Source: Albula goreensis
Taxonomy: Eukaryota; Chordata; Actinopteri; Albuliformes; Albulidae
Length of the DNA stretch: 64,000 bases
Reading direction: 5' to 3'
Assembly: GCA_022829145.1 (NCBI GenBank)
Contig: CM040743.1
Span: 35,257,841-35,321,840, forward strand
Below the pieces are notes generated by a model. The model searched no databases. It was given only the letters and a program-made list of their open reading frames with translations, and had not been told where the DNA came from. Shown piece by piece: positions 2,712 through 51,248 of the stretch (its first letter is position 1; each line of letters begins with the position of its first letter). Position numbers and translations under genes: made by a program.

Positions 2712-2848
2712 GGCTCTCCATGGCGAGGATGGTGATGTTGTGAACAGCATTGACCTCTCTGTCCAGCAGCTTGGCGGTGCTGATGACGCCTGTGGTGGCG
2801 TCGATGTTGAAGAAGCGCTCCAGGTCCGTGTTGCGGTCTATGGAGTAC
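2712..2848 (-). CDS. cdh7: cdh7 exon 8: middle of EC4
   Basis: This 137 nt exon has exactly the length usual for the family. It completes an Arg codon begun in exon 7, then reads [20 protein letters not shown] followed by [20 protein letters not shown] and LAMES, plus one base of the next codon. [12 protein letters not shown] and the EC4 calcium motif LDRE are clear. HNIT is an N-glycosylation sequon conserved at this place in many classical cadherins. The acceptor is TCTCCAG and the donor is GAGAGCC|GTGAGT. The next exon, which should carry the DINDNAPEF linker, is not found between here and position 1. Confidence 0.94.
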
Positions 2849-5800
2849 CTGGAGACAAGGTGTCGATTGTGTTAAACTGTGGGGAAGACTGAGATTTGAG
2901 ACTCAGCTGCAGGAGAGGAATCTATAACTAGACGATGTCTGCTCTTTAATTATCCACATGCTGTTCTAGAGCAATCACAAATTAATAATTTCTGCAGGCA
3001 AATACAAAGGCAAATACTGTGCTGGTGCAAAAGGGAATGATGGTGCCTTCAAAAAAGGTTTGGTTTCTTCTCAAGAGGATTTCACTTTTTCCAATGCTCT
3101 ATAAAAACCATAACTTCAAGGTTATCTTGTTTAGGAACAAACAGGTATCTGGCTGTATGTCTCCTTACAAACACACGGCCTTGGAAGAACTGGAAAGAAC
3201 TAGTAACCCACAAACAAAACAACACAATTAATCCTATAGTTTCTAGTCCTGCGAAAGTCACAGTGATTTCATTTTCAGATGCTGAATTAAATATGGTTTC
3301 ATTTGCCAATTCCTTCAACCACTTTTTGCTAGGTGAAAGATGGCAGACAACAGTATCACCCTGTCTTTGTGAAAATTCCAATTGTGGAACCTCAGTGTTG
3401 TTGCAAGACACATAATATTATACAACAATTCATATAGCAGTCAGGATAGGTTGTGTTGCTCAGAAACTAAAGCAAAATTAATGAAGAGTATAATATATAT
3501 AATTGTATAATTAGGAGCTCTTCATTTCAACATTTTTGAAAGCTGCCAGGGAATGTCTTTTTTTTCTTGATAAATTAGGTGTCTATGATGACATGTCACT
3601 GGTTTGTCTTGTCATGGGCTTCACAGGTAACAGTATCTGTCTAATTAGCCCTGTAGTTCCCCACTGACAGTGGCACTTTTAACAGAGTTCAGCTGACAAA
3701 AACTGACACAGCCTTCTCACAGGGAATCAATTAAAATAATAATGAGTAAAGACAGTATTCACAAAATGTCCAAGGAATGCAATTATTTTAAAAGATAAAG
3801 TTCCTCACAGTTCAATGATCCTGACAGATTTGACGGAGTTTGTACCACACAAGGATAAACGCTAACCCAACAAATGCCACCTCCATCTGATAGCCCTGAA
3901 TGTGGTACAGATTGCTAATCCTCACCAGGGAACACGCTCCTCTTGTTAAACAAAGATGACATTTATGTCTCGCAAAAGATAGCCTGGCAAAGACACACAC
4001 ATGCTCAGGCTTATGCAGACATACAGACACTGACATGTACAAGAACACACACATGCACACACGCATGCACACATGCACACACACACACAATTATGTGACA
4101 CCACGATTCAGTCAAAAACTTACACAGCTGAAATGAAAAGAAATACATACTGCTGTACAAATAGCATCACGAATACTTGATAATATTTGTATGTCGCTCT
4201 GGATAAGAGCAAAATTCCTTTAATGTAATGTAAGGAATATTCTGGAGTCATAATATTCAAGGCTATTATGATAATGACTAAACACAATAATAACAATAAT
4301 AATAACAATAACAGAATAAACCTGTCAACTATTAGCAGAAGAAGAATATTACTATTATTTCCTCATAGGATACCCAGTAATCCCAGGTCCTATGAAATGG
4401 ATATTTCAAATTAATTGATGCCAAAATTGTGGGAATGAACTGTGAACTATGGTATACTCACACTCTTAAAACTGGTCTTCCTTTCATGGCATCAAAGTAT
4501 AACATTTTTTTCTTCAATGCTAACAGTAAGCTGAATTCTATCACTAAATATAGTACAAGCTCACCTGTGTACTGTGTACTGTTTTCTCCTCAGGTGGAGA
4601 GAGTGAAATATAATACATACTTGTTCCACATCAATCCACAAGACAAGAGGCCTAGAGGGAACATTGCTTTGGCTCTGCAAAAGCCCGATGTTGTGCACAG
4701 CGGGGATGGAACAAAATGGCTGTTGTTTACCGATGTTCCCCTACCTGATAGGGCTGTTGGTGGAGTCGGGGTCATGGGCGGAGACAGTGTCGATGATGGT
4801 GCCCACCTTGGCAGCCTCAGACACCATCATCATGCTGAGGGGCGAGGAAAAGACGGGGGGCTCGTCGACATCCTCCACCGTCACCCGCACGGTCGCCGTG
4901 TCACTGAACGGGCCCAAGGTCAGGAACCGTTGGTCGATATTCGGTTTGACGCTTCGATGCGGAGTGTGTAGCTTGACTTTGTCTCGAAATCCAGCCCCTG
5001 TGGAAGACGGAGAAAGCGATGAGTTGAAGCAATGAGATGAGGTGACCATCTCAAAACACACACTACACATCTGAGAGTGGAGTTAAATGAATCCCAAAGT
5101 GAGTGGAGTACAAGAAACTGTAGAAGTGACAATAGGTCGACAACACTGAACATATGCTAGCTCCTCTCATTTCGGGGTTTGTCATGACTCGTCTTCTTCA
5201 CACTGATGTGAACCAACCACACTTCTATCAACTTAAAGTTCCACATTAAAATATATATACATATATTATACATATAAAAACAATATATATACATATATTG
5301 ATTAATACACAGAAATAGGACTCAAAAACATTCCTTGTCAAGAGGATCCATTTTCATATATTTTTCTTGTAATATGCATGGTCATCTTTATTGTACAACA
5401 AAATACTCCACTCATTTTTAATAGTATTCAATGGACAAACCTATGAACCAGCGAATAGCAAATGAAATAATTGCTAGAATATAGGTATTTTCACCTGGCA
5501 GGAACCTAGCACAATAAAAGTGTAAAGCTGTGGCATTCACTCCCTCCACAATTAATTATGGCATCTGCACTTGCTGTCTTCTGCTGCAAAACAAAGGTAG
5601 GCTAGGAGAGTCAATGGTTTTGGCAGTCGTTCAAAGGCAGAGGCCATAGATTTTTGAGATGTGGCTCCATTAATTAACCTCCTTTATTTCTATGAGAGTG
5701 ATTAATGTACAAGAAATGTGATCTGCAGAGACGCTTTTCATTAGTTTAACACCTCCTGAAATAAACACTGGGGATATATGGTTTTTCAGGAACATTCCTT

Positions 5801-7353
5801 GCTTACAGCTAATCTTCTTTTGATTTTCCACAATGTATTTTCACCTCTCTTAGTATTATGTGCTCAATAGGTTATAAAATATGGATATAAATATGAATAA
5901 TGCAGCAGTGGTTTTTGTCTGTATGGATAAAACATAATTTACGAAACAGTTTTAAGGTGTTGAACAAAATGTATCTAGTCTTAAAAGAGTTTTATGATAT
6001 ATTTAACCAGGAAGGACATTCAATGAATTCCTTAATTACTTACCAATTAGTTACCAACATTTAACATCAATACCCAACAAAAACAAAAGCAGTGTCCAAA
6101 AATTGCCTGGGATTCAGTCAAAAATTGCCCTTAACTTTTACGTACAACTGAATGTGAGTGATACACGTTTTCTCAAAAGAACAATTAGAAAAGTTCATTT
6201 TCACAGTTGCTGAATTCACCAAACCACTTGCATTTAATTGTGAGCCAAAATTAAGGACAAAATCTTTTTGAATCCCAGCCACAATTTCAGAATATTTTGA
6301 GAATATGTTGAGAATATGCTGAGAGGGCTCAGTCAAACTGGGGTATGGAAGAAGGCAGTCATGACACCTGGGAAGGGCAACATTTCAGAGCTACAGATTA
6401 ATTTAAACTTTTTTTAATTTTATTAATTTTGTTTATCAAATTCTTTCTATTATTGTAACGTAGCGCACTGCAGGTTATTGTCACTATTATAAAACTATGG
6501 GCTTGGACAAGCACAACAGACAATTTGAAACTCTCTTACACTTTATCAACTGGGATGACATAAACATTTCAGTATGTTACCATGGTTTATTTTTCAGTGC
6601 GGATACACACAATGCGTGCTAGACTGGATGACAAATCAATATGTAAGGGTCACAGTAAATTTTCCACTTTAACTGACTTTGAGTAGACCTGACTTTTTTT
6701 CAGTGTCTGTACCATGCACTTAATGAATTGAATTTAGGAGCACCGTGGCTGTGTGCATGTTGCCACTTACTCCTGGGATTTGAACCTGCAACCCCAGTCG
6801 TTAAATCTTTTAACCTTCCAATAGTGGTAATCTCACACGGACCATACCTTCTGCAGACTTATGACTCCTTCCTGCGTTTCTTTGTCAGGCACCACTCTGA
6901 ACGTCCCCAGGCCATCTCCGTCTATAATTCTGAACTCCATTTCGGCGTTGGGCCCCTCATCGGGGTCGTCAGCTTTTATCTTTGCGACCACAGACTCCAT
7001 GGGCAGGGATTCCGGAACAGTGAACTGATAGGATTCTGCGGAGGCCCAAAAACAGTTGTTGGTGAGCCTGTTTTCTCAATCTTATCGCCCGTCCTCTAAA
7101 TCCTCTTCTTTTACGCCCACCTGTGGATTAAGCGGCTGGGACCCGCTGCCCAGAGCACTGATTGTAAATGTCCCAAAATGTCAGGAGCGGGGCTACATAG
7201 ACCTCACTGGGAGAAGCACCTTTTACTCTGCACCCCATTTGCCAACTGCCAATTCTTAATATCAATATTCTTTTCAAAGAATCTGCCAGTGCACTGCAAT
7301 CTATGTCATTCCTATTACAGACTAAAAATGATGTGTGCATTTAAATACATAAC

Positions 7354-7431
<78 letters not shown>

Positions 7432-10400
7432 TCTTTTTATATTGCTTTACTCAAAAATAGAGCATTTTACTTTCATTGGCACTGCAGAAAATGTTGGAAA
7501 ATTTATATCATTCCCATAGGAACTAAATGCTTCACAAATCTCGCTGACAGGTGACAGCCCAAAATGACTGGTTTATTTTGACATTTCCCCCCACTTTGTT
7601 CCCATTTTTGGAATCAGTACATGTATTATACTTTCATATCACTGGTACACAGCCCAGGAAGCAGTGCTGCTGGAGATTGCACATTCATCCGTGAGCTAAT
7701 AAACATGCTCCGATCTGGAGGTCACAGAGTGAACGATAGGAGGGCCTGTGTAAATCAAAGGAAAGGCAAATCTCTCACTGACAACTGGTAACTTGAAACA
7801 AGGGGTGGGGGGGAATTATAAGGCAGATACTTAAGGTATTCTGTCTGAGATAAACCCACACCACCTCAGCCCAGTGGAATGAGGCCAGTTGTAGCATAGT
7901 CCATACTCAAGCTGCTGAAATAATGATGATAAGGCTTGGGTGGACTTGTTTCAAGCACGTAAACAGCCCTGAACCTGAAGTTCATTTTCACTGTGAAGCA
8001 TCAGCCTGTCCCAATGCCATCCCTGGCAAAACACATCAACGTTCACGTCAATGTTCACTCATAACATAAGCACGGCGTAGATAAACACAAAAGAACAAGG
8101 TAAGTTAAAAAGCTGCTTGCGTCATGCTCCGCTGCTCCCAGTCACGGCTAACTACTACAGTAAGATTAATGTGCTGTCTGATTGTCTTCAGTCCGTTTAT
8201 GACCGACTCAGCACAATCCCCTATGCTTTGGCTACGCTGCCCTTAAAAACATGACTCATCATGGCATTGCTGGCAGCAGAGATTCACTTTCCAGCTCTGC
8301 TCTGCCCTGTGTAGTACGTTTTTAACTGGCAGGAGGGAGCCAGGATCGACTGCACTCTTGAATTTGTGTTCCAAAAGAAAAAAAAACACCTCCTTTAACA
8401 ATAATTGAAGATAAAACATAATATAAAAAACTGCCAACAAGATTTATGTACAGATGCTGGAGGGAGAAGGCTACTGAGGGACTTTGTGGGGGTGGGGCAT
8501 TGTGGGTAATGCACCCTGGGTAGGGAGGGCATCTTACTGCGAGAGAAGCGCGGCGGGTTGTCGTTCACATCCGTTAGCGTGACGGTGACGGACGTGGTAC
8601 CGGACAGGCCGCCCATTTGGCCCACCATGTCTTTGGCCATGATGACCAACAGGTACCCATCCCGCGCCTCCCGATTCATGTTGGGGAGAGCCGTCCTGAT
8701 AATACCTGAAGCGGAAAGAAAGAGAGACAGAGTATGGCTGAAAGTACATGAGCATATTAGAAGATTTACTGTATAAACTTGGTGGGGGGATGCATCCATT
8801 CCCACTTCCCGCATGTACATTTCAAACACTGCAACGTCAAATGAGATCAACTACGCACTTCAAATTAAGGACGACACCCTGACTAGTTCATCCTTGGCAG
8901 TAGTCTTGATTAAGGAACATCACTCAATCTAAGAGTTTTAAATGTGCCCGCACTGAGGAGCCGACAACATTAACACAGATATATTATGAACTGATACACT
9001 AGAAACGGTGTTAATCACGCCTTTGAAAGTCACTCTCTCACCCTCGATTTAACCCCTCCACTGTAAGTCATGGTGTGTGCGCATGCTAAATTCACTGGTG
9101 AGTGATGAATAGCAGTACACCATGGCTGTAAACACCTCTTATTGGCTGAGGCCACAGCTCTTTTAATTTGAAAGCTGACAAACCCAAAGGAAAGTACAAT
9201 TTACTGGTTCTCACCTGCCTTGCAAACTAGTCATCTCTCCTTAATAGAGTGCGACCAATGACTGCACAGTGAAAAGTGTGATGGATGGCATCACTGCAGA
9301 TTGTATAATTTAGATCTAGAGACATGCCGAGGAGTAGTTGTGGAAGCAGAGATCCCGTTCATGTACAATGGATTCTCCTCATACGGTTGTAAATCCTCTC
9401 GATCAACAATGTTCATAAAGCTATCCATCCACCTATCACTGAAGTGGTAAATAAATACCATTTCTTTACAAATGCAGTGTTTGTGTTATGCTTTGAAATT
9501 ATATTTGCAGCTGTTTTTGTATGCATATAAATACAGCGCTTTTCATTATTTGTTTTCCACATTGCGAATATGTGTTTAATTAAGGAGGAGGCACAGTATG
9601 TCAACCTTTAAGTTTACAGATTGTTCTTACATAGAAAAATAATGCTGAAATGTGCACAGTGTATGAAACATCAATTACGGATTTGTTATTTATAGATGAT
9701 CTTTAGCTGCTGCAAGAACCTCTGCTGTATTTAAATGACAGCCAACGTTTTATTAACGCAAACATCATTTAGTTAATCTGTCCCTAAAAATTGATTCTGA
9801 TAAGAATAGCCAAAAAGATCTAGTGTTCAGAGAATAACAATATAATGATCTGAAGCAAAGGGAGAGTATAGACGTGAAGTCAGAAAACCAGCAGCAGATG
9901 TTGGAGCCTGTGCGCGGGTGACAGAAATGGGACGGGTCGGATCAAATGAGCGTAATGATGCTTGAAAACCGATCTCTGCAAGGATGACGGGGTGTCTGTG
10001 CGGCATCCCCAACGCCTCACGCGTGGTCCACCTCGGACACAGAGGGCGGTTACATTTCCGGGCCTCTGTGAAGGCAGAAGGGTCCCACATGGCACCACAC
10101 TGTTTCGCCTACGGCCAAAGCAAGATGTGTCACGTTCCTGCTTTTGTCAGGGTGGCTCGCCCCCGACCACCCCCGACCACCCCGCCCCAACCCCCCACCC
10201 CGCGTATGTGTCCGCGTCTCACGTGCCTCTGAAAAGCACACAGCGTGCCACACTTTCCTTACAACAGCAGCGTATCGCCGTCTAATAAAAGGAGGTCTTT
10301 TCATGTGGCTTTGTATCGCTGCGGTTACATGGGCCAAGGCTAAGAAAGTTGCACAAGAGCTGTGCGTTTGAATCCCAAAATATACATTGTTAATGGGGGC

Positions 10401-13400: not shown

Positions 13401-16400
13401 CACTGAAATAAAGCTGACATGCACACTGTGAGATACTCTGATGAACTTGCAATACTTTCATTTCACAGGCTTTCCTCGGAAAAAAAACAAAAAACAAAAC
13501 CCAGTTATCTCAAGGAACATAGCGCCTTAGCATCTCTGGATAGCGAAAAACGGTGTCAGTCCTCTATCCACACTTTTAGCGCTTCTGTGTGTAACAGAAG
13601 TGTGGAGCACAGTGCTGTAGGGTCAGCATGGTCACTTCAGATCAGTCTCTGCCCCTTATCCAAAGACCTTTGCCGTGACTCCACCACCAGATAGTGAGCC
13701 GAAATCCCTCCAGTGTCAAGGTGTGTGTTCAGTTGCAGCACCCATTTCGCTTGAGTACACTCTAGCCCTAAGGCCACTGGAGAGAAGCAGATGATTTGCT
13801 GTCTGCATGGGTTGTTATTGACAGGAGAGCGTGGAGACGGACTGAAAGGGCTGGGGTTTTTTTTCGGATAACGGCGGCCGATAAGGGCCTGCCGTGATTT
13901 TTATGGGACAGCTTTTCTCAAGATGCTCTGGGGGAAACAGATATACAATACGAGGGAGGTGGTTTTACGAGTGCACAGACGATACTGTAGAGGACAGCAT
14001 AATATCTGGGTATGTTTAAGAGGGCTTGCTTTATATCATCCTGCCTGCTCCTACTAATATGGCTCAGAGAGCCCAGGTACCACATGCTACTCAGTACTAT
14101 GTCCCTATTACATGATTACCAATAGAAAGCAATGGTTGATTCATATCAGAGGTAATTTTAACAGATGGATGACTGAGGCTTCAAAATTCCTATAACGTGA
14201 CAAGATTCAGTACTGCTATAGGAGCTATTAAATATTTCAAATAGGAACAAATAAAAGGCTCCTCCACCCCAAGGAAAGCACTATAACCGGTTTGTGGCAT
14301 TGTGAGTGCTCTGACCATTTGGGGGTCATTTTTTATCATTAGAAATAAACACCCTGAGATCCCTCAACAGCTTGCTTAGTTTTGTTAGGTAAATCAGTCA
14401 AGTTCAGCAGAGAGCTCAAAACATAAAAATCAAATAGTGATGAGGCTCATTCTATTGCGAAGAAGAGCCTGTTTTAATTCCCTCATGAAATTAGGCAGGG
14501 AACCTATGGAAAAGAGAGATAACCTTTTCAGGAACAGGACAATTTCTCTCTCTCTCTGCTTTTTTTAATGTTGCAGAAGCCTGAGGTGTGTTAGCATATT
14601 GGGCAAAAGCTGTTCAATTTAAATGGACAGATTTCTCTGTACCACAGCGGGCAAATTCAAGCCAAATAAATGGTCAGGGGAAACAAGGAAGGTGCCACAT
14701 ATTGTTTGCAATTCTAAAATCTTAATTTATTCCCACAGAGATGGCATAGCTGTTAGCCTGATAGCAAAACAGCCTGTTTGCATATAGGTGAGGCAGACCA
14801 GATGAGAATCAGGTTTTTCGAGAAAGCAAAAAAAAAAGTTTGCAAAAGATCCTGCATCAAGAAGATGGCTGTAGTACAGATCTGCAAAGCTCAGGCATTC
14901 CAGCAGCTGTGTCTAAGAGCGGTCCCATTGGCAATTGTTGGCTGGATAGTATTTACATTAATTTAATTTCATGAAAGTTCCAGAAGATAGTGGCCTATAC
15001 TTAAATAGATATGGTTCTGTGCCGCATAGCCATGTCCCTGGGTTTAAATCCCAAGAGAGATGAATTTATTCAAATTGCACTACAGACATGTTTCTTTGGA
15101 TTTGGATGATACGTTTCAGACCTGTTTAAAGCAGGAGGTATTTTGCATCCTCCAGGGTACTGAGACAGAGGAGAGACAAATGCATCCATACATTCCTGGG
15201 AGGTTTCCTACATGTCACCTCTAAATGAGCTGAGACTCAAATGTGGGTTTTTATGGTAATTGACTGGGCAAGGATGACCTTGTTGCACACTGTGAGGTTA
15301 TTTCTTCTCATTTTCTTCAAGGATCTCTATTCTCGATGTGATCTGTGTGCTTAAAAATCGTTATATCCTATTAAACCTCAATATTTTCACGCGGCAAACC
15401 TCAAAGATCAGTTGAAATGGGTCATAAAAGCAGGACTGAAAACAACAGACATTCAGATATTTGCTGGAAAACGCAGATAATCAATTCAACACTGTCTTTG
15501 GGGGAAAGTTTTCAAGTTTTCATTAGTGAAATAAGTTCCTTGTTCCATTGGTCAGTAACTGATCGAAAAACAGACTTCATTTTCTAGCCAGGGACTTCAA
15601 ATTCCTGTCTCAGGCTAATGTTTTTCTTATGTCTTTACAGTTCATGAAATTCATAAATTCCAAATACAGTCTGTAATACAGTACCATTACATTCAGAGAA
15701 GACTCATTTGTTAGCCAGGATAAACGTATGTGTTACATAACGAATGAAAGTTAGTTTCATTGCTTACCTGTCTTTGGTTCAACGGAGAAATAGGGTTGTC
15801 CCTCCAAGATGCTGTAGACTACCCTGGCACTGTTCCCATACGTGGGGTCATCAGCATCAGTGGCCACTACCTGAACCACCGACGTACCTGCAAAGTGGAC
15901 ACTCACGGTCACCATTTTACATCTTACGGCAACAGCAACAAGGTCATGACTTGCAGACAAAGGACACCCTTCAAGCTAGCACAATTCAGTGCATCATGTG
16001 AGAAAAATTAGTGGGTGAAGTATTGGTGTATCACGTTTAAGTTTCAGACTGTCATCAGATGTTTTCCCTAGCGTTCATGTTAATTTTGTAGGATTCAAAA
16101 TTGCAATCTGTGTTCACAGTTCTATTTTGCATTCACTTCTGCTGCTCTTTAGCCTTTTTATTTCAGAGTGTGTTTTTTTCAAATGTTTTTAAATCTATCA
16201 CTCATGAGCACTAACCACTCAATTCAATTTTTGCAACTGAGCATCCAGTTGATGAATAATTCAGAGAATCATTAACCATAAAATAATAACTAAAAAAGCA
16301 CACAGCCTTTTCCCCATCTGAAACGAGTCTTTGCTCAGTGTTAAAAAGTCATACATGCAATACACGTGCATCCATTTCGCAGCTCAGGGTTTTGCCTGCC

Positions 16401-19400: not shown

Positions 19401-22400
19401 ACAGATCATTTATTTTTGTGAATACTCACTGCTTTGAGTGATTTTATGTAACATACTCTTCAAAAAAATCTGTGTTTTTTGGTATTTCATCTGTAAAAGT
19501 GGTTGGGCTATATCTATGTCTCTAAGTGAGGTCCAAAGTAAACAGCCTTGATGCACCCTCAGTGTGTATTGATGTTTCTATTACGCACACCATTTCCATG
19601 GAATAAACAGCATTTTTTCTGCCTCTGGCTAGAAATAATCTTCACATGTGCAAAACAGAACCAAGCTACATAGTTTAAGGCTGTCATCTACTGACTTATT
19701 TATTGTTATATAATGACACACTAAGGTATACACTGATATCAAGAGGTCGAGCAAAAATCAGCATGTTTATTTCTAACTAAAAAATAATTATTGTTATGCA
19801 TTAAGTTTGACCGATGGGCTTTTGTGAAGACTAATTAGCATTGTTCTTTTGGAATCACGTGAAATATTATTTGAACAGTGTTAAATCATTTTAGAAACAT
19901 CATGAAATATGTTCCCAGTTATAAATGGTAATATAAACATTTTGAACCGTCATTTGATATGCCTGTTGTTACATCTGGCCTAGACGTGCCCTGGTGTCTC
20001 TGTGTAGGACAAGGTCTTTACCCTTTTTTTCTACTCTAACCCCTTGAGATACCCATGGGCTCAGTGCATCGCTAGGCCTGTAATCCTTATTAGATCTGGG
20101 TTCTTAGTCAGGGTTTTCCTGTGAGAATTCCCATAAGCAAAAACCAAATCTTACAATCCAGGCCCGCGTCATTCCGTTAAAGCTCAAAAAGTTCCCACCT
20201 TAATGTTTCTCTGCTTGTTTACCAATCGCAGCCATTTTCAATCTCCAACAATGGCAAAAAAAACAAGAATAAAGTAAACTGATCCGTTTGCCCTGCCTCG
20301 GGCTTGTGTTTAGACCATTAAGTATAATGTCACAGTGACTTTTATATTACTTTGTCCTCTGATCAGAAAACTTTGTCTACCTTTTAGCTTGCGGTGTGCG
20401 CCGTTCCACTGTTTGGCAGGGAGTCACATAAATTTTAAATGAAAGCTTAATCCCTCTTTTCCCATTCAGACAGAATTGGCTGCGGGTGTTGCAGCAGGGT
20501 GAGCTTAGCGTCTCTTTCTATCATGAATACCTCTGGAAGTGTTACCTTACTCGTCCTGTTGGATTTAAGCCGGCTATCTGAGCACACAGCTCCGCAGCTC
20601 CCTTTTGTTTCTGGGGCTTGTCGTTTTGCTGCAGCTCCTGTTCCTTGTCCCTACTTTGTTCTACACAATTTTTTTCCGTGTTGTCTAAGTAGAATGGGCT
20701 TTTGCCAGGCTGCTGGGGATATGTTGACTGAGTTCAGCCAACACAGAGAGGGAAGTGGTGTTCCAACGTTCAGCACGTGAAGCTCACCGGTAGCTATGAC
20801 CTCAGCATGTTTATTTATGGGAATACTTAAATTCCTTCGTACGTCATCAGCCCCTTTGTGGATCCGACTGTAAAGGTTCCCAGTATGAGTATGGACCGGG
20901 CCCTATATAAGTTTCAAGCCTATGTCATTCACCTCAGCCAGCCAAACAGTCGGTTTCGTATAAGATGGCTAAGGTTCTTGCAGCTAAAGCTACTTTATCT
21001 CCTCGCAGCACCTGCACCTTTTCATTTGTTGACAATGATGCATCTCTCCTCTGATCAGCGCTAGCTGTCCTGCACTGTTATGCACATGTCACAGGCTTGC
21101 AGGTGAGCACACTGGAGAAATGCATGCAAATCAGCTGCAAGGCCCGTTGTGCAGTGTGGGTAACACAGTAGCGACCTTGCGTAGATTGTCCTATAAAAGT
21201 GGAAAAATAATATGTGCAGTACTGAGCATTGTCTGTAAATTTTGTCTATGCTCTGGGAATAATTTCCATTAAAGACAAAAATAACCTCTAAAACAGAACC
21301 TTCACAACAGGGTTTACCGATACTACCATGCAGGTTAGTATAGAAGAAAGGTGAACTTCAACCAGTACTATTACTATCAGTAGACAATTAATAAACTATT
21401 ACCCCTCCTACAACTGCCACTGTTAGTACATTGTCACTGGTAAGATGGCTAATGTCAGTAGGTCTCTTGCCTCTGCTGTTACCAAATGACATCATTGGAC
21501 TCACCAACGGGGGACATCTCTGGAACCCCTGCAGTGTAGGGCCCATCCAGGAACTTGGGCTCGTTGTCGTTGATGTCCTGGACCTTGATGACGAACTCGG
21601 ACTCTGGTTCCACGGGTCGGTTGGAGAGCCGGTCCACGGCCTGGGCCCGCAGGGTGTAGTAAGCCTGCTCCTCCCGGTCCAGACGCTTGGTGGCATGGAT
21701 GTCACCTGTGTTCTCGTCAATGATGAAGATTGAGGTAGCGCCCTCTCCAGACAGAACATACTTCACTCTGCCTTCTCCTTTATCCACATCAGAGTGAAGC
21801 TGTAAGAGAGAGAGAAAGAGAGTATTCAATAAAGAATCTCGACTTCATATTTGAGAGAAAGTGAGATGGGGGAAGGGTAAGAGTGACAGTGCGAGAGGGA
21901 GGAAGAGCAGAAGGCAGGGTGTCTACAAAAAAAAAACAAGGGAAATAATGAGTAAGGATGAGACAGGGCGAGAGAAAGGGTGATAGAGAAGAGGAAATCA
22001 AGAGACTAAGGCGAAGACAGTGACAGGAAGTGTGAGGGAGAGAAAAGCAAGGAGAGAGCAAGTTCACATCCCTATGAGTAATCAAATACAAATGAGAAGA
22101 GCTGTCTGAGAGGAAAGTTTCCCCAAAACTACATCTGTCAAAATGAGTCAGCACTCTTTATTGTGGTCCCTTTATGAATAGAAAGTCTCTGGCCGTTTAT
22201 TGCTGCAGGAGCTCAGTTGGCCATTGTGGTAAGGACACATGTAAAGATTTGATGGTGATCCTTAGGGCAGCTACAGAGGGGTTGATGGATGGGGAAATTG
22301 CATAGTCTTTGGTTTTACCTTTGAGTCATTTCTACACTGAAACACATACTGGAAACAAGCAGTTAAGTCAAAGAAAATGTTGTAGCAGCAAAATCTAGCA

Positions 22401-49400: not shown

Positions 49401-51248
49401 TGATGCCTTTATGCTTTCTAATGGCATGGCAAAAAGTAAGAATTTGGAATTAATTTGTATGCATGCATGCATCTATTCACATTATTACTCACTCATCGAG
49501 ATTGTCCATTTCGTTTCATTATGTACACCTCAATAAAAGAGACAGTCACTGTATTTAACATTTATATAAACCAGTAAGCAAACACAACAGGGTACCTACT
49601 TCTACTATAGCTTGCTAAATCATGAAGTAGAGGCACTGACTTTTGGTTCAAGGCTAGCACAGTACTGTTCACCAGAGTGTATGTGAATGACAATCCTGGT
49701 TAGGCAGAACAACTTGTGCCTATCATTATATATTCTTATACTCTTATATTGGCATTAGGATGACTAGGAAAATAATGGAGGGGATTTCAACTGACATTCA
49801 TGGGAAGAGGAAGAGAAACCATACAATCAATTTCCAAAGAGGAATACACCAATGTTTCTTTGACATTTCTTTGGCAAACTGAGAAGTACATAAGTCAAGG
49901 TCAATGGACATGATTTGTAAAGAATATTTCTTGAAAATACTTCTTAGAATGCAATTCTGTATTTCCTGTTGTTTGATGAAAACAAGTCATTTGTACAGAT
50001 GAATCTCTTAACCTCCTTTTCAAATGTCGTGAGGTCAGGATACAAAGTTACCAGGGTTGATGTCGCAATACATGAGTCTCACTCAGCCTGGAGTCAAGCT
50101 CCCTAACTATGCATCACAGCCTCGCCACAGTTCTGAGATCAGCCATGTAGGTCATACGCCGACTGCAATTTGTGACGGGACCGTTCCACTCCTCTCCGCC
50201 GTAATATCCAGGCCATTACTACGGCCTCATAATAAGTTTGCCACTGTGGCAGCGCCAATTAAAGCTTACCAAAGGCCACCCAAATTTATTTCAACAGTAC
50301 AGTGTTGGTAATCTCACCTTTTTTAACGGACTCTCTCAGAGCTTTTATGAAGTGTAATGAAGCTTTGCAGTTAGTTGAAAGATGTTTAAAAGTGTATTTT
50401 CTTTCATTTCAAAACAGTACACTTCATTTTCTGGTGTCAATAAAAATTGCTTACATGAAACCAGCAGCAATCAGAATTCTCACGAACCAGAGTCTAATGA
50501 ATGATGTTATTGTACACTAAGAGCCTCCCTTTCAGCTTCTGGAATGTGACAAAGTGACAAAGACCGAAGCCATTACTGGATTTTTTGTGTAATCAATTTC
50601 AAGGAGACTAATTTGTTTTAACACACTAAATGCAGGCTTTGACTCCTTGTATCAGTGTTGATAATTAACGTGACAGCAATTCAATTCATAAATGGAAAGT
50701 GTGATGAGTTTGATTCCACTACGTGCTAAACAAAATAAATCTGGCCACTTTCGCCTGATGAATCCCCGACCGTATTTTCCACATGGTGACTCCATGACAA
50801 GCTGAAGCTTCATTTGTCAAATGCAGAGTGTAAGAATGCACATATTCCAGGGAATGGACCTCAGATACCTAAAAACCTCTGGGGAACCAGCTTATTGAAC
50901 CGTTGATCCATTGCAGACACCTTGACTTCACCAAACTCAGTTTAAGTAAACAAATGTACTCAGGACCTTCACTTGTGGCACATGGATGAATCAGCCTGAT
51001 AGGAACAGCCTTACCTTTCCCACGTAGAGAGGGTCATCACCCGTGTACTCCTCCAGAACGAAGAACTGGTTCCATACCCAGCTCCGCTTCTTCCTGTTTA
51101 GGGCAAACCTGGGGCCCTCGGGGGCCTCGGAGAGCTGAAGGAGGGGCTCCACATCAGAGCTCATAGCTGAGCATCCTGTCTCCCACAGGGACAGCAGCAG
51201 AGTGGCCACGCCCACCACGCTCCACACCGGAGGGCAGCTCAACCTCAT
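2712..51248 (-). CDS. cdh7: Cadherin-7 (type II classical cadherin), 5' part of gene, seven coding exons, one frameshifted
   Basis: Classical type II cadherins are calcium-dependent homophilic adhesion proteins of the plasma membrane that link to catenins; cadherin-7 is known mainly from neural crest, brain and retina. Seven minus-strand exons join in phase: 51248..51015, 21799..21505, 15887..15768, 8705..8538, 7035..6848, 4997..4745, 2848..2712. All have AG acceptors and GT donors. They encode signal peptide, prodomain, RKKR cleavage site, EC1 with Trp at mature positions 2 and 4, EC2, EC3 and most of EC4, with the calcium motifs [27 protein letters not shown] and DVDEPPVF. Segments such as [18 protein letters not shown] and [19 protein letters not shown] favour cdh7 over cdh20. 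The C-terminal half lies off the left edge. Exon 7 lacks one base, so the literal reading stops after about 360 residues. Recognition is by remembered family sequence, not by a search. Confidence 0.93.
4041..4090. repeat. Imperfect (CA)n with CATG interruptions
   Basis: Alternating CA units are broken by repeated ATGCACAC blocks, giving a higher-order pattern. Confidence 0.9.
4185..4240 (-). mobile_element. SINE 3'-type remnant (TCGCTCTGGATAAGAGC tail)
   Basis: GTCGCTCTGGATAAGAGC followed by TAATGTAATGTAAGG is the hallmark of a widespread group of fish interspersed elements. Only this conserved end is left. It lies in inverse orientation to the fragments at 35765 and 44600. Confidence 0.6.
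4285..4312. repeat. (AAT)/(AAC) microsatellite
   Basis: An A-rich trinucleotide array with mixed AAT and AAC units. Confidence 0.8.
4745..4997 (-). CDS. cdh7: cdh7 exon 7: end of EC3 and start of EC4, with a one-base frameshift
   Basis: Acceptor CCACAG and donor ATCAG|GTAGGG define 253 nt, whereas the family protein implies 254. From the phase-0 start the frame reads [18 protein letters not shown] and then RISTNGS before TGA at 4922-4920. One frame over, the expected sequence resumes at [20 protein letters not shown], followed by [13 protein letters not shown] and ending [10 protein letters not shown] plus two bases of Arg. The two halves meet at about 4940-4946, where eight bases replace the nine expected between Asn353 and the Asp of DQRF. 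A short run of A is the natural place for the loss. Codon choice and conservation on both sides look like functional coding sequence. Either the assembly dropped a base or the allele is broken. Confidence 0.9.
5249..5300. repeat. AT-alternating low-complexity stretch
   Basis: ATATATATACATATAT occurs twice around a short spacer, giving an imperfect direct and inverted repeat. Confidence 0.7.
6735..6830 (+). mobile_element. Possible SINE core fragment
   Basis: GGGATTTGAACCTGCAACCC followed by TTTTAACC resembles the internal part of the fish SINE group whose other remnants lie at 4185, 35765 and 44600. It is highly diverged and could be coincidence. Confidence 0.3.
6848..7035 (-). CDS. cdh7: cdh7 exon 6: first part of EC3
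   Basis: This 188 nt exon completes Lys273 and encodes residues 274-335. It starts [20 protein letters not shown], continues through the calcium-binding stretch [14 protein letters not shown], and ends with [18 protein letters not shown]. The ETQEGVI strand and the DGDGLGTF turn are characteristic of EC3 in this subfamily. The acceptor is CCGCAG and the donor is CAGAAG|GTATGG, phase 0. The exon is open and its length matches the family. The next intron is only 1.85 kb. Confidence 0.94.
7036..8537 (-). other. cdh7: cdh7 intron 5 with compound microsatellite
   Basis: This is a 1.5 kb intron. A (AT)n(AG)n array (7357-7429) lies about 320-390 nt before the exon 6 acceptor. On the transcribed strand it reads (CT)n then (AT)n, a pyrimidine-rich tract. 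Nothing else is recognised. Confidence 0.9.
7357..7429. repeat. Compound (AT)n(AG)n microsatellite
   Basis: About 14 AT units pass through ATAGATAG into about 20 AG units without other interruption. The array is likely length-polymorphic. Confidence 0.95.
8538..8705 (-). CDS. cdh7: cdh7 exon 5: second part of EC2
   Basis: This 168 nt exon encodes Gly217 (completed) to Arg272 plus the first base of Lys273. It reads [20 protein letters not shown], then [20 protein letters not shown] and [22 protein letters not shown] (262-268) is the EC2-EC3 calcium linker. KDMVGQ, with valine where most type II cadherins have glycine, is typical of cdh7. The motif that is MDRE in other type II members reads MNRE here (226-229), through an AAT codon. 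The acceptor is GCTTCAG and the donor is CGCA|GTAAGA. The exon is open and of the expected length. Confidence 0.95.
10328..10520 (+). repeat. Diverged tandem duplication, about 97 bp unit
   Basis: Two copies share ATATACATTGTTAA followed by GGCCA and CATATG/CACGTG-like ends. Each is preceded by a TTTGAATCCC or GGTTCGAATTT sequence resembling a tRNA B-box. The units start near 10328 and 10425. A decayed tRNA-derived element is possible. Confidence 0.4.
13567..13606. repeat. Inverted repeat, 9 bp stem
   Basis: TCCACACTT (13567-13575) is the exact reverse complement of AAGTGTGGA (13598-13606). A competing inner stem, CTTCTG/CAGAAG, lies in the loop. Confidence 0.5.
15768..15887 (-). CDS. cdh7: cdh7 exon 4: first part of EC2
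   Basis: This 120 nt exon begins with the last two bases of Gly177 and ends with the first base of Gly217. It encodes [20 protein letters not shown] and then [28 protein letters not shown] (187-194) is the EC2 calcium-binding DxD/N motif, nearly invariant in type II cadherins, and [16 protein letters not shown] is the following conserved strand pair. The acceptor is TTTGCAG and the donor is ACAG|GTAAGC, a near-consensus site. The exon is fully open and of the expected family length. Confidence 0.95.
17120..17205. repeat. Compound (ATG)n/(TTA)n/(ATG)n/(ATA)n repeat
   Basis: Four successive trinucleotide arrays alternate between GAT-type and AAT-type units. Confidence 0.9.
17600..17860. promoter_or_regulatory. 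Candidate conserved non-coding element in intron 3
   Basis: This is high-complexity, GC-balanced sequence with several CpGs, free of simple repeats and contrasting with its AT-rich surroundings. No coding frame with domains is present. Conservation is not tested. Confidence 0.2.
21505..21799 (-). CDS. cdh7: cdh7 exon 3: main part of EC1
   Basis: This 295 nt exon encodes residues 79-176 plus the first base of Gly177. It starts [10 protein letters not shown] after acceptor TTACAG (preceded by CTCTCTC) and ends GVPEMSPV before donor GTTG|GTGAGT. It carries the EC1 calcium motif LDRE (118-121), the strand [11 protein letters not shown] and the EC1-EC2 linker DINDNEPKF (153-161). The length equals that expected for this exon across type II cadherins. 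[18 protein letters not shown] is the passage that best separates cdh7 from cdh20. The exon is isolated by a 29 kb intron upstream and a 5.6 kb intron downstream. No frame disruption is seen. Confidence 0.95.
23080..23350. promoter_or_regulatory. Candidate regulatory island in intron 2 (CpG-dense)
   Basis: It begins with a GGTGCGCGGCGCGCAG block, is followed by about ten more CpGs, and contains TTAATTA/AATTACG homeodomain-type core sites. The surroundings are AT-rich and CpG-poor. A role as an enhancer is inferred only. Confidence 0.25.
25699..25715. repeat. Poly(T) tract
   Basis: An almost pure T run. No SINE body is recognised beside it. Confidence 0.8.
28095..28222. repeat. Purine-rich (GAGA) low-complexity stretch
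   Basis: About 130 bases made almost wholly of A and G on the plus strand in imperfect GAGA units. It reads as a pyrimidine tract on the transcribed strand. Confidence 0.85.
28697..28711. repeat. Poly(T) tract
   Basis: A short T homopolymer in AT-rich intron sequence. Confidence 0.7.
29030..29200. promoter_or_regulatory. Candidate conserved non-coding element in intron 2
   Basis: High-complexity sequence with no simple repeats includes TTTTGATTACAAA and repeated ATTACCCATGCC words. It looks unlike the decayed intron around it. Composition only. Confidence 0.2.
32941..32986. repeat. T-rich homopolymer pair
   Basis: Two T-runs separated by CCAATGTTGGA, with the CCAA/TTGGA words repeated after the second run. 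Confidence 0.6.
33205..33250. repeat. (AATA)n tetranucleotide microsatellite
   Basis: About eleven tetranucleotide units with a single GATA variant. Confidence 0.9.
33290..33560. promoter_or_regulatory. Candidate regulatory island in intron 2
   Basis: This is a CpG-bearing, high-complexity stretch between a microsatellite and a G-rich tract, with GGCGCCATGATTGCGAATC and a nearby TGATGACAAATGGCC. No coding frame with domains is seen on either strand. Composition is the only evidence. Confidence 0.25.
33661..33709 (+). repeat. G-rich tract, quadruplex-prone
   Basis: Runs of 3 to 7 G separated by one to a few bases meet the four-run rule several times on the plus strand, which is antisense to cdh7. 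Confidence 0.7.
35765..35930 (+). mobile_element. SINE remnant (ACCTTGCTCAAGG core)
   Basis: GCACTGAAGTGATTCGG followed by CTGAAGTACCTTGCTCAAGG matches the internal part of a very common fish interspersed element. The flanks are decayed and no target duplication is clear. Confidence 0.5.
38790..39130. promoter_or_regulatory. Candidate regulatory island in intron 2
   Basis: This is one of the largest high-complexity, CpG-retaining stretches in the window, with no simple repeat over about 340 bases. It includes AGTGCCGCGATGCTCACC and GGGCGATTGCTCTGTCATGG. An open frame of 97 codons crosses it but carries no recognisable domain. Conservation across fish would be the test. Confidence 0.3.
39950..40140 (+). 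mobile_element. Possible L2-type LINE 3' fragment
   Basis: TTCAAGCGCAGACTGAAAAC followed by TCACTTTTTCAGG resembles the codons near the end of L2-type reverse transcriptase frames (an LKTH/LKTL-F motif). The frame is interrupted directly. This is only a short degraded end. Confidence 0.35.
42050..42500. repeat. Relative of the AACATTC dispersed repeat
   Basis: Words such as AACATTCCCAGGAAAA, GTTTGGGGAATGTTCTC and CCAACTTTCCCAAAAC echo the repeat at 1040-1300. Ends are not resolved. Confidence 0.3.
43046..43086. repeat. (ATT)n microsatellite
   Basis: A trinucleotide array with one TAA interruption. Confidence 0.9.
43740..44050. promoter_or_regulatory. Candidate regulatory island in intron 2
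   Basis: About 300 bases of high-complexity sequence with frequent CpGs, including CTTTCGTCCGCGCGCTC and GCGAAGCGAAACGCTGGTCG. The plus-strand frame across it has no domain, and its end shows no splice context. It is a candidate enhancer by composition only. Confidence 0.25.
44600..44750 (+). mobile_element. SINE remnant with T-run
   Basis: TTAGCAGA, then CTTATCCTGGG, then ACCACCTTGCTCAGAGG follow the order of blocks in the common fish element whose other pieces lie at 4185 (inverse) and 35765. The T-run at 44609-44636 lies between ACATTACA and the first block. Confidence 0.4.
45700..45890. promoter_or_regulatory. Candidate conserved non-coding element in intron 2
   Basis: High-complexity sequence free of repeats includes CTTGATCTTAATTCCAGGCC and GGGGTAATTGCC, a homeodomain-type TAATTG core. 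Composition only. Confidence 0.2.
46225..46385. repeat. GCTAGC/TTAGC-rich stretch with inverted units
   Basis: AAGCTAGCAACTTAGCAAGC is followed by GTTAGCTTGCTAAC and, about 100 bases on, GCTAGCTTGTTAGC. The units are complementary to one another, so parts could pair. Confidence 0.5.
47829..47860 (+). repeat. G-rich tract, quadruplex-prone
   Basis: Runs of 5, 5, 3, 5, 3 and 3 G with very short spacers on the strand antisense to cdh7. Confidence 0.7.
48093..48192 (+). mobile_element. LINE 3' tail fragment
   Basis: GTGAGTAAGAATTTCACTGC at the start and TTTGAACTTGAACTTG at the end match the untranslated tail of a common fish non-LTR retrotransposon group, which ends in a short tandem repeat. 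No coding part remains. Confidence 0.55.
50130..50300. promoter_or_regulatory. Candidate conserved non-coding element near the exon 2 side of intron 2
   Basis: A high-complexity stretch with CCGTAATATCCAGGCCATTA, TACGGCCTCATAATAAG and GCGCCAATTAAAGC lies about 0.8 kb downstream of exon 2. It is repeat-free and retains CpGs. Composition only. Confidence 0.2.
51015..51248 (-). CDS. cdh7: cdh7 exon 2, coding part: signal peptide, prodomain, start of EC1
   Basis: These 234 nt encode residues 1-78. The ATG at 51248-51246 is the first in the exon, has A at -3, and is preceded in frame by TGA at 51272-51270. The GTG three codons upstream is not needed. Residues 1-28 form a signal peptide with a hydrophobic core ([11 protein letters not shown]) and a small-residue end (GCSA). 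A prodomain of about 27 residues ends in the furin-type site RKKR at 52-55. The mature protein begins [15 protein letters not shown], with Trp57 and Trp59 as the two strand-swap tryptophans of type II cadherins. The exon ends YVGK, then donor AAG|GTAAGG at 51015/51014, phase 0. The equivalent exon of other type II cadherins ends at the same place. Confidence 0.93.

Follow-up and report, generated by a model that had tools for sequence, protein, structure and literature searches.

Cadherin-7 (CDH7; mouse Cdh7, PDB 6CGS; zebrafish cdh7a) is the closest described system for the gene analyzed here, which shares with it the repeats EC1-EC2 (187 of 207 residues identical to mouse Cdh7) and differs from it in that coding exon 6 of this copy is one base short in the assembly. 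In chick, a soluble cadherin-7 isoform arises by alternative splicing. Any stable truncated product of the present locus would resemble it as a shortened secreted ectodomain; however, the chick form is a splice product and not the outcome of a frameshift, whereas the stop described here lies inside EC3 and decay is expected. False frameshifts are described for older assemblies, one example being the protocadherin PCDH17 in an older zebra finch assembly, where false indels in a coding exon of a cadherin-family gene likewise break a conserved frame (PMC9516821). Those were false insertions, recognized when a newer assembly was compared and reads were mapped, while in our case a base is lacking and the observation comes from the assembled sequence alone. 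Short frameshift indels were the commonest errors in long-read vertebrate assemblies before polishing (PMC8081667). Literature searches on truncated type II cadherins and, in the part of the matches listed, on cdh7 frameshifts in fish found none on such a deficit, and a search on soluble cadherin-7 found none.

Identity and exon structure of the gene

The window, i.e. the whole stretch of 64,000 nucleotides of Albula goreensis DNA analyzed here (C3:35257841-35321840), belongs to a genome of 932 Mb in 208 contigs. Its minus strand carries seven coding exons of one gene, with AG/GT at each junction, and four more lie beyond the window start, giving 11 coding exons and a coding sequence of 2396 nt for cdh7 on C3 (Table 1). 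Exons E1 to E5 form an open frame of 1005 nt, from the start codon through the cleavage site into EC3, while E8 to E11, which contain no stop or frame break, encode by our reading of the domains the last repeat together with the membrane span and the cytoplasmic tail. The original prediction had named the gene cdh7, and the identity of EC1-EC2 to mouse Cdh7 given above, compared with 157 of 206 residues for Cdh10, bears this out. EC1 alone is identical to Cdh7 in 86 of 97 residues and to the 1zvn chain, which we take to be MN-cadherin/cadherin-20 though its PDB label reads 'Cadherin 1', in 72 of 97; among the entries of the Protein Data Bank it matches Cdh7 best (6CGS, 204 bits; the next 172.7 bits). 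A search with the 299-residue EC1-EC3 piece placed a longer three-repeat cadherin-8 chain on top (436.6 bits vs 424 for Cdh7). In E1 the propeptide cleavage site is followed by the mature SWVWNQ with both tryptophans, a trait of type II cadherins. Judged from these comparisons, the gene is the orthologue of cadherin-7 (cdh7), a type II classical cadherin. Pfam assigned the 299-residue upstream piece to the cadherin domain and the 63-residue downstream piece of E6 to no family, Rfam gave nothing at the gathering threshold in the window, and no relative was found in the viral contigs searched.

Table 1. Coding exons of cdh7 on C3, the deficit in E6 and the related loci on C14 and C16; positions are those of the window unless a contig is named.
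Feature	Position	Strand	Description
Coding exon E1	51015..51248	-	234 nt; start codon, signal and propeptide, RKKR cleavage site, EC1 start; open frame, GT donor
Coding exon E2	21505..21799	-	295 nt; EC1; AG/GT sites; C16 match covers whole query, 92%
Coding exon E3	15768..15887	-	120 nt
Coding exon E4	8538..8705	-	168 nt; EC2 end
Coding exon E5	6848..7035	-	188 nt; EC3
Coding exon E6 (exon 7 of the original prediction)	4745..4997	-	253 nt vs 254 expected; EC3 end to EC4 start
Deficit site in E6	4936..4943	-	eight bases where relatives have nine, from alignments
TGA in upstream frame	4920..4922	-	codon 361 of spliced frame
Coding exon E7	2712..2848	-	137 nt; EC4
Coding exon E8	C3:35255950-35255829		outside window
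Coding exon E9	C3:35249046-35248929		outside window
Coding exon E10	C3:35247251-35246997		outside window
Coding exon E11	C3:35238574-35238069		outside window
cdh7 duplicate	C16:8164021-8238031		11 exons, same order; intact 2385 nt reading frame
Matching E6 of another type II cadherin gene (L023)	C14:30340541-30340796	+	one base short, at DPRF codons

Length and reading frames of coding exon 6

E6 lies between good splice sites (acceptor ending in TTCCACAG, donor GTAGGG), and the 253 nt claimed for it were confirmed base by base (4997-4745). The exon of the original prediction stands, but not its number: among the 11 coding exons it is the sixth, and the number 7 would need a noncoding first exon. 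Its codons 1-18 (4997-4944) read as conserved cadherin, and so do 63 codons further on (4935-4747), whose frame is the one that joins E7 correctly on splicing; the two frames are one base apart, which agrees with the claim that the first 18 codons and the last two thirds are conserved in different frames. The eight bases in place of nine were found as claimed, although their place is 4943-4936, a little further 3' than the stated 4940-4946. The TGA was located precisely where it had been reported (4922-4920); the upstream frame comprises 360 codons up to this stop, and 175 nt of the exon lie beyond it. Under the 50-nt rule a stop this far upstream in an exon is expected to lead to nonsense-mediated decay. 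Decay, one of the two outcomes foreseen, is therefore the ordinary expectation, whereas the other, a soluble EC1-EC3 product, fits less well, as the stop precedes the end of EC3. The repeats, the membrane span and the tail are all encoded in C3 cdh7, and the frame downstream of the deficit is open through the cytoplasmic tail, but as assembled the frame is broken in E6.

The expected length of 254 nt is in accordance with cadherin-8 (2A62), which aligns without gaps across the site with three residues at the deficit, and with the duplicate gene on C16, whose BLAST alignment to E6 contains in 263 columns a single one-base gap, at the deficit site. Comparison with the 17 other type II-like exons of the genome gave the same picture: among the matches listed, 16 of the 18 exons are unbroken, gapless single matches, the broken ones being the window exon and one on C14. 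The deficit is beyond chance, because the downstream piece of E6 on its own finds solved cadherins (E for the best whole chain 3.1e-16) and the exon matches C16 as DNA (E 2.9e-52). A misread splice site was rejected, since the same two junctions bound a 254 nt exon in the C16 copy. The presence of a near-identical copy at another place in the assembly was also rejected: E6 DNA gave four matches, the window at 100%, C16 at 79% as the best other match, then two at 66% and 70%, and no near-identical second copy among them.

The duplicate on C16 and constraint on the window copy

The original prediction had proposed a search for a second copy of cdh7 in which the exon is intact at 254 nt, and such an exon, open, was found at C16:8210826-8211079. 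Exon order is the same for the 11 exons of the C16 gene, whose product agrees with that of the C3 gene in 677 of 791 aligned residues, and the two loci are colinear with noncoding blocks common to both; in contrast, E6 has 254 nt and is open on C16 while it has 253 nt in the window. Ten exon pairs differ in length by 0, 3 or 6 nt and only E6 by one. As EC1-EC2 of the C16 copy likewise has mouse Cdh7 as its best match (183 of 207 identical), we take the two as cdh7 genes that go back to a duplication, probably that of teleosts. The C16 copy represents a duplicate gene that has diverged, not a second allele. E10 has 255 nt on C3 and 252 nt on C16, the difference being one extra in-frame codon just before the membrane span.

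Constraint on the window copy was examined by comparing C3 and C16 with the Nei-Gojobori method, in which dS is near saturation and the values are rough. On this basis dN/dS was 0.091 for E6, 0.075 for E2-E5 and 0.070 for E7-E11, while E1 (signal and propeptide) gave 0.246, which counts against a smooth picture; for the first 18 codons of E6 dS was not computable, being near saturation between the copies. Relative rates were even for E6 measured against the consensus of 13 paralogous type II exons (five changes in C3, five in C16), and against mouse Cdh7 the private changes in EC1-EC2 numbered five in C3 and nine in C16. Relaxed protein-level constraint was therefore not detected in the window copy by dN/dS and relative-rate comparison, which a very recent loss would escape. 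A second lesion was sought across C3 cdh7, and ten of the 11 exons contain no stop or frame break; the original prediction had called the other six coding exons clean, which extends to ten with the four outside the window. The kept constraint speaks strongly against an old pseudogene, but on these data a loss in the very recent past and an assembly error look alike.

Other cadherin exons and the origin of the deficit

How clean the assembly is in related coding sequence was judged from exons matching E6, E2 and the last exon. The E6 search scored 150 of 367 candidates and the E2 search 150 of 906, hence the lists may be incomplete. From 50 E6 matches 18 were taken as type II-like (L005-L021 and L023, with L006 being the window) and 32, taken for partial matches or members of other cadherin classes, were left out. 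Six of 25 E2 matches were left out (E 3.2e-17 and weaker), and all 19 strong ones are whole among the matches listed. For the last exon 14 of 32 matches were left out as shorter or weaker, two of them with internal stops; the 18 long ones kept are all open, two of these matching part of the query (1-121 and 35-164). In addition, among the matches listed, 17 from the E6 search belong to open frames with 800 codons or more and three to shorter ones (369, 419 and 688 codons).

The C14 exon has 256 nt, that is, the length of the C16 exon plus one codon and minus one base, and its deficit lies 6-14 nt from that of the window in the alignment. On C14 a whole E2 match lies 26 kb upstream of it, exon 5 is open in the same locus, and 65 kb downstream the last exon is open as well; by their position we infer that these exons form one gene with the short one. 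Before the last-exon matches were added, single-base deficits in conserved cadherin exons were bracketed at about one in 7 to 32 kb, at which a coding sequence of 2.4 kb has a 7-29% chance of carrying one; this rate includes the window's own deficit and alone does not tell errors apart from genuine variants. For another deficit to lie that close in the 17 sister exons, the chance is ~0.015 when calculated from two deficits in ~64 kb sampled, a sum in which the large frames were chosen for having at least 800 codons and which is thus biased towards a low rate, and ~0.07 from the 13.9 kb of small exons only (before the last-exon matches). This hints weakly that the proximity of the C3 and C14 deficits, spotted after the fact, is more than coincidence. 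The C14 deficit would fit assembly errors but does not prove them.

The original prediction left two causes, an assembly error or a very recent null, and took the clean exons as leaning towards this pair; ten other exons without lesions and the lack of relaxed selection support both points. We consider it quite probable that cdh7 on C3 is a working gene and that the base of E6 was lost in the assembled consensus and not in the animal. The base would then be present in the animal's DNA, and the real transcript, with a 254 nt exon, would encode a full adhesion protein with five repeats and a membrane span. A dropped base is favored because the deficit is a single one of one base, the ten other exons are free of lesions, constraint is kept and a similar deficit is found on C14, in a gene whose E2, exon 5 and last exon read through where matched. 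Several points count against it. The eight bases at 4943-4936 hold no long homopolymer and because of this the loss cannot be assigned to an A-run, as had been suggested; the error rate of the assembly is evidently not high, since most of the coding sequence sampled is clean (among the matches listed); the retained duplicate makes a true loss more tolerable; and the C14 deficit could itself be real.

A true null allele, very recently fixed or segregating in the sequenced animal, is unlikely, but it is the alternative that survives best. The C3 transcript would in that case undergo nonsense-mediated decay or yield a 360-residue fragment ending inside EC3, with the C16 duplicate covering the function. 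The deficit does stand in the sequence with a large part of the exon past the stop, the C16 gene is intact and no near-identical second copy was found among the four matches of E6, all of which is in accordance with a null; against it, there is no further lesion in 2396 nt of coding sequence and constraint is not relaxed. A real loss would be at most roughly 0.7-2.5 million years old (arithmetic on typical mutation rates), and a long-kept neural cadherin is presumably an unlikely place for a fixed null. It is very improbable that the deficits are real in both C3 cdh7 and the C14 gene, i.e. that two type II cadherins were lost or cut to short EC1-EC3 products by separate one-base losses lying close together in the corresponding exon, which would suggest that the EC3-EC4 boundary is a hot spot of mutation or selection.

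Even less credible is a working gene that bypasses the deficit, either by programmed -1 ribosomal frameshifting or through an upstream acceptor leading into the downstream frame. The similarly placed deficit of the C14 exon speaks for it, and a scan of 400 upstream bases revealed two AG sites, with exons starting at 5070 or 5049 (minus strand), from which an open frame leads into the downstream reading. However, the intron at these sites is unaligned with C16, the aligned block starting seven bases before the exon, and either start would swap the EC3 end for unrelated residues. Programmed frameshifting was rejected, as a scan of E6 found no slippery heptamer of the standard form (X XXY YYZ). 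An old pseudogene, for which the one disabling lesion speaks, has next to no probability and was rejected, given a single lesion in 11 exons, intact splice sites and dN/dS near 0.07-0.09.

Taken at face value, the assembly would show a lost adhesion gene. Calls of this kind can be sorted: where the rest of the gene is clean, constraint persists and an intact duplicate exists, an old loss is disfavored, and a base error or a very young allele is left. As a comparable deficit occurs in another cadherin exon, the assembly is flagged for a read-level check of coding indels. If, instead of the favored dropped base, the null is true, it offers a natural test of how the two cdh7 duplicates share their work.

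Noncoding blocks 70-82% identical to and colinear with C16 include window positions 19075-18855, 17843-17526, 12131-11946, 5766-5549 and 24024-23855, and further ones 35553-35387, 55389-55124, 58969-58715 and 62310-62130. These are possibly conserved cdh7 regulatory elements. For the zebrafish gene, named cdh7a, four enhancer candidates have been tested, two of them upstream and two intronic (PMC10320716). A literature search on cdh7a/cdh7b found no paper with cdh7b. A second type II-like cadherin gene lies at C16:8308455-8319648 on the minus strand, ~70-80 kb past C16 cdh7; we assume that it is possibly cdh19, the neighbor of CDH7 in mammals.
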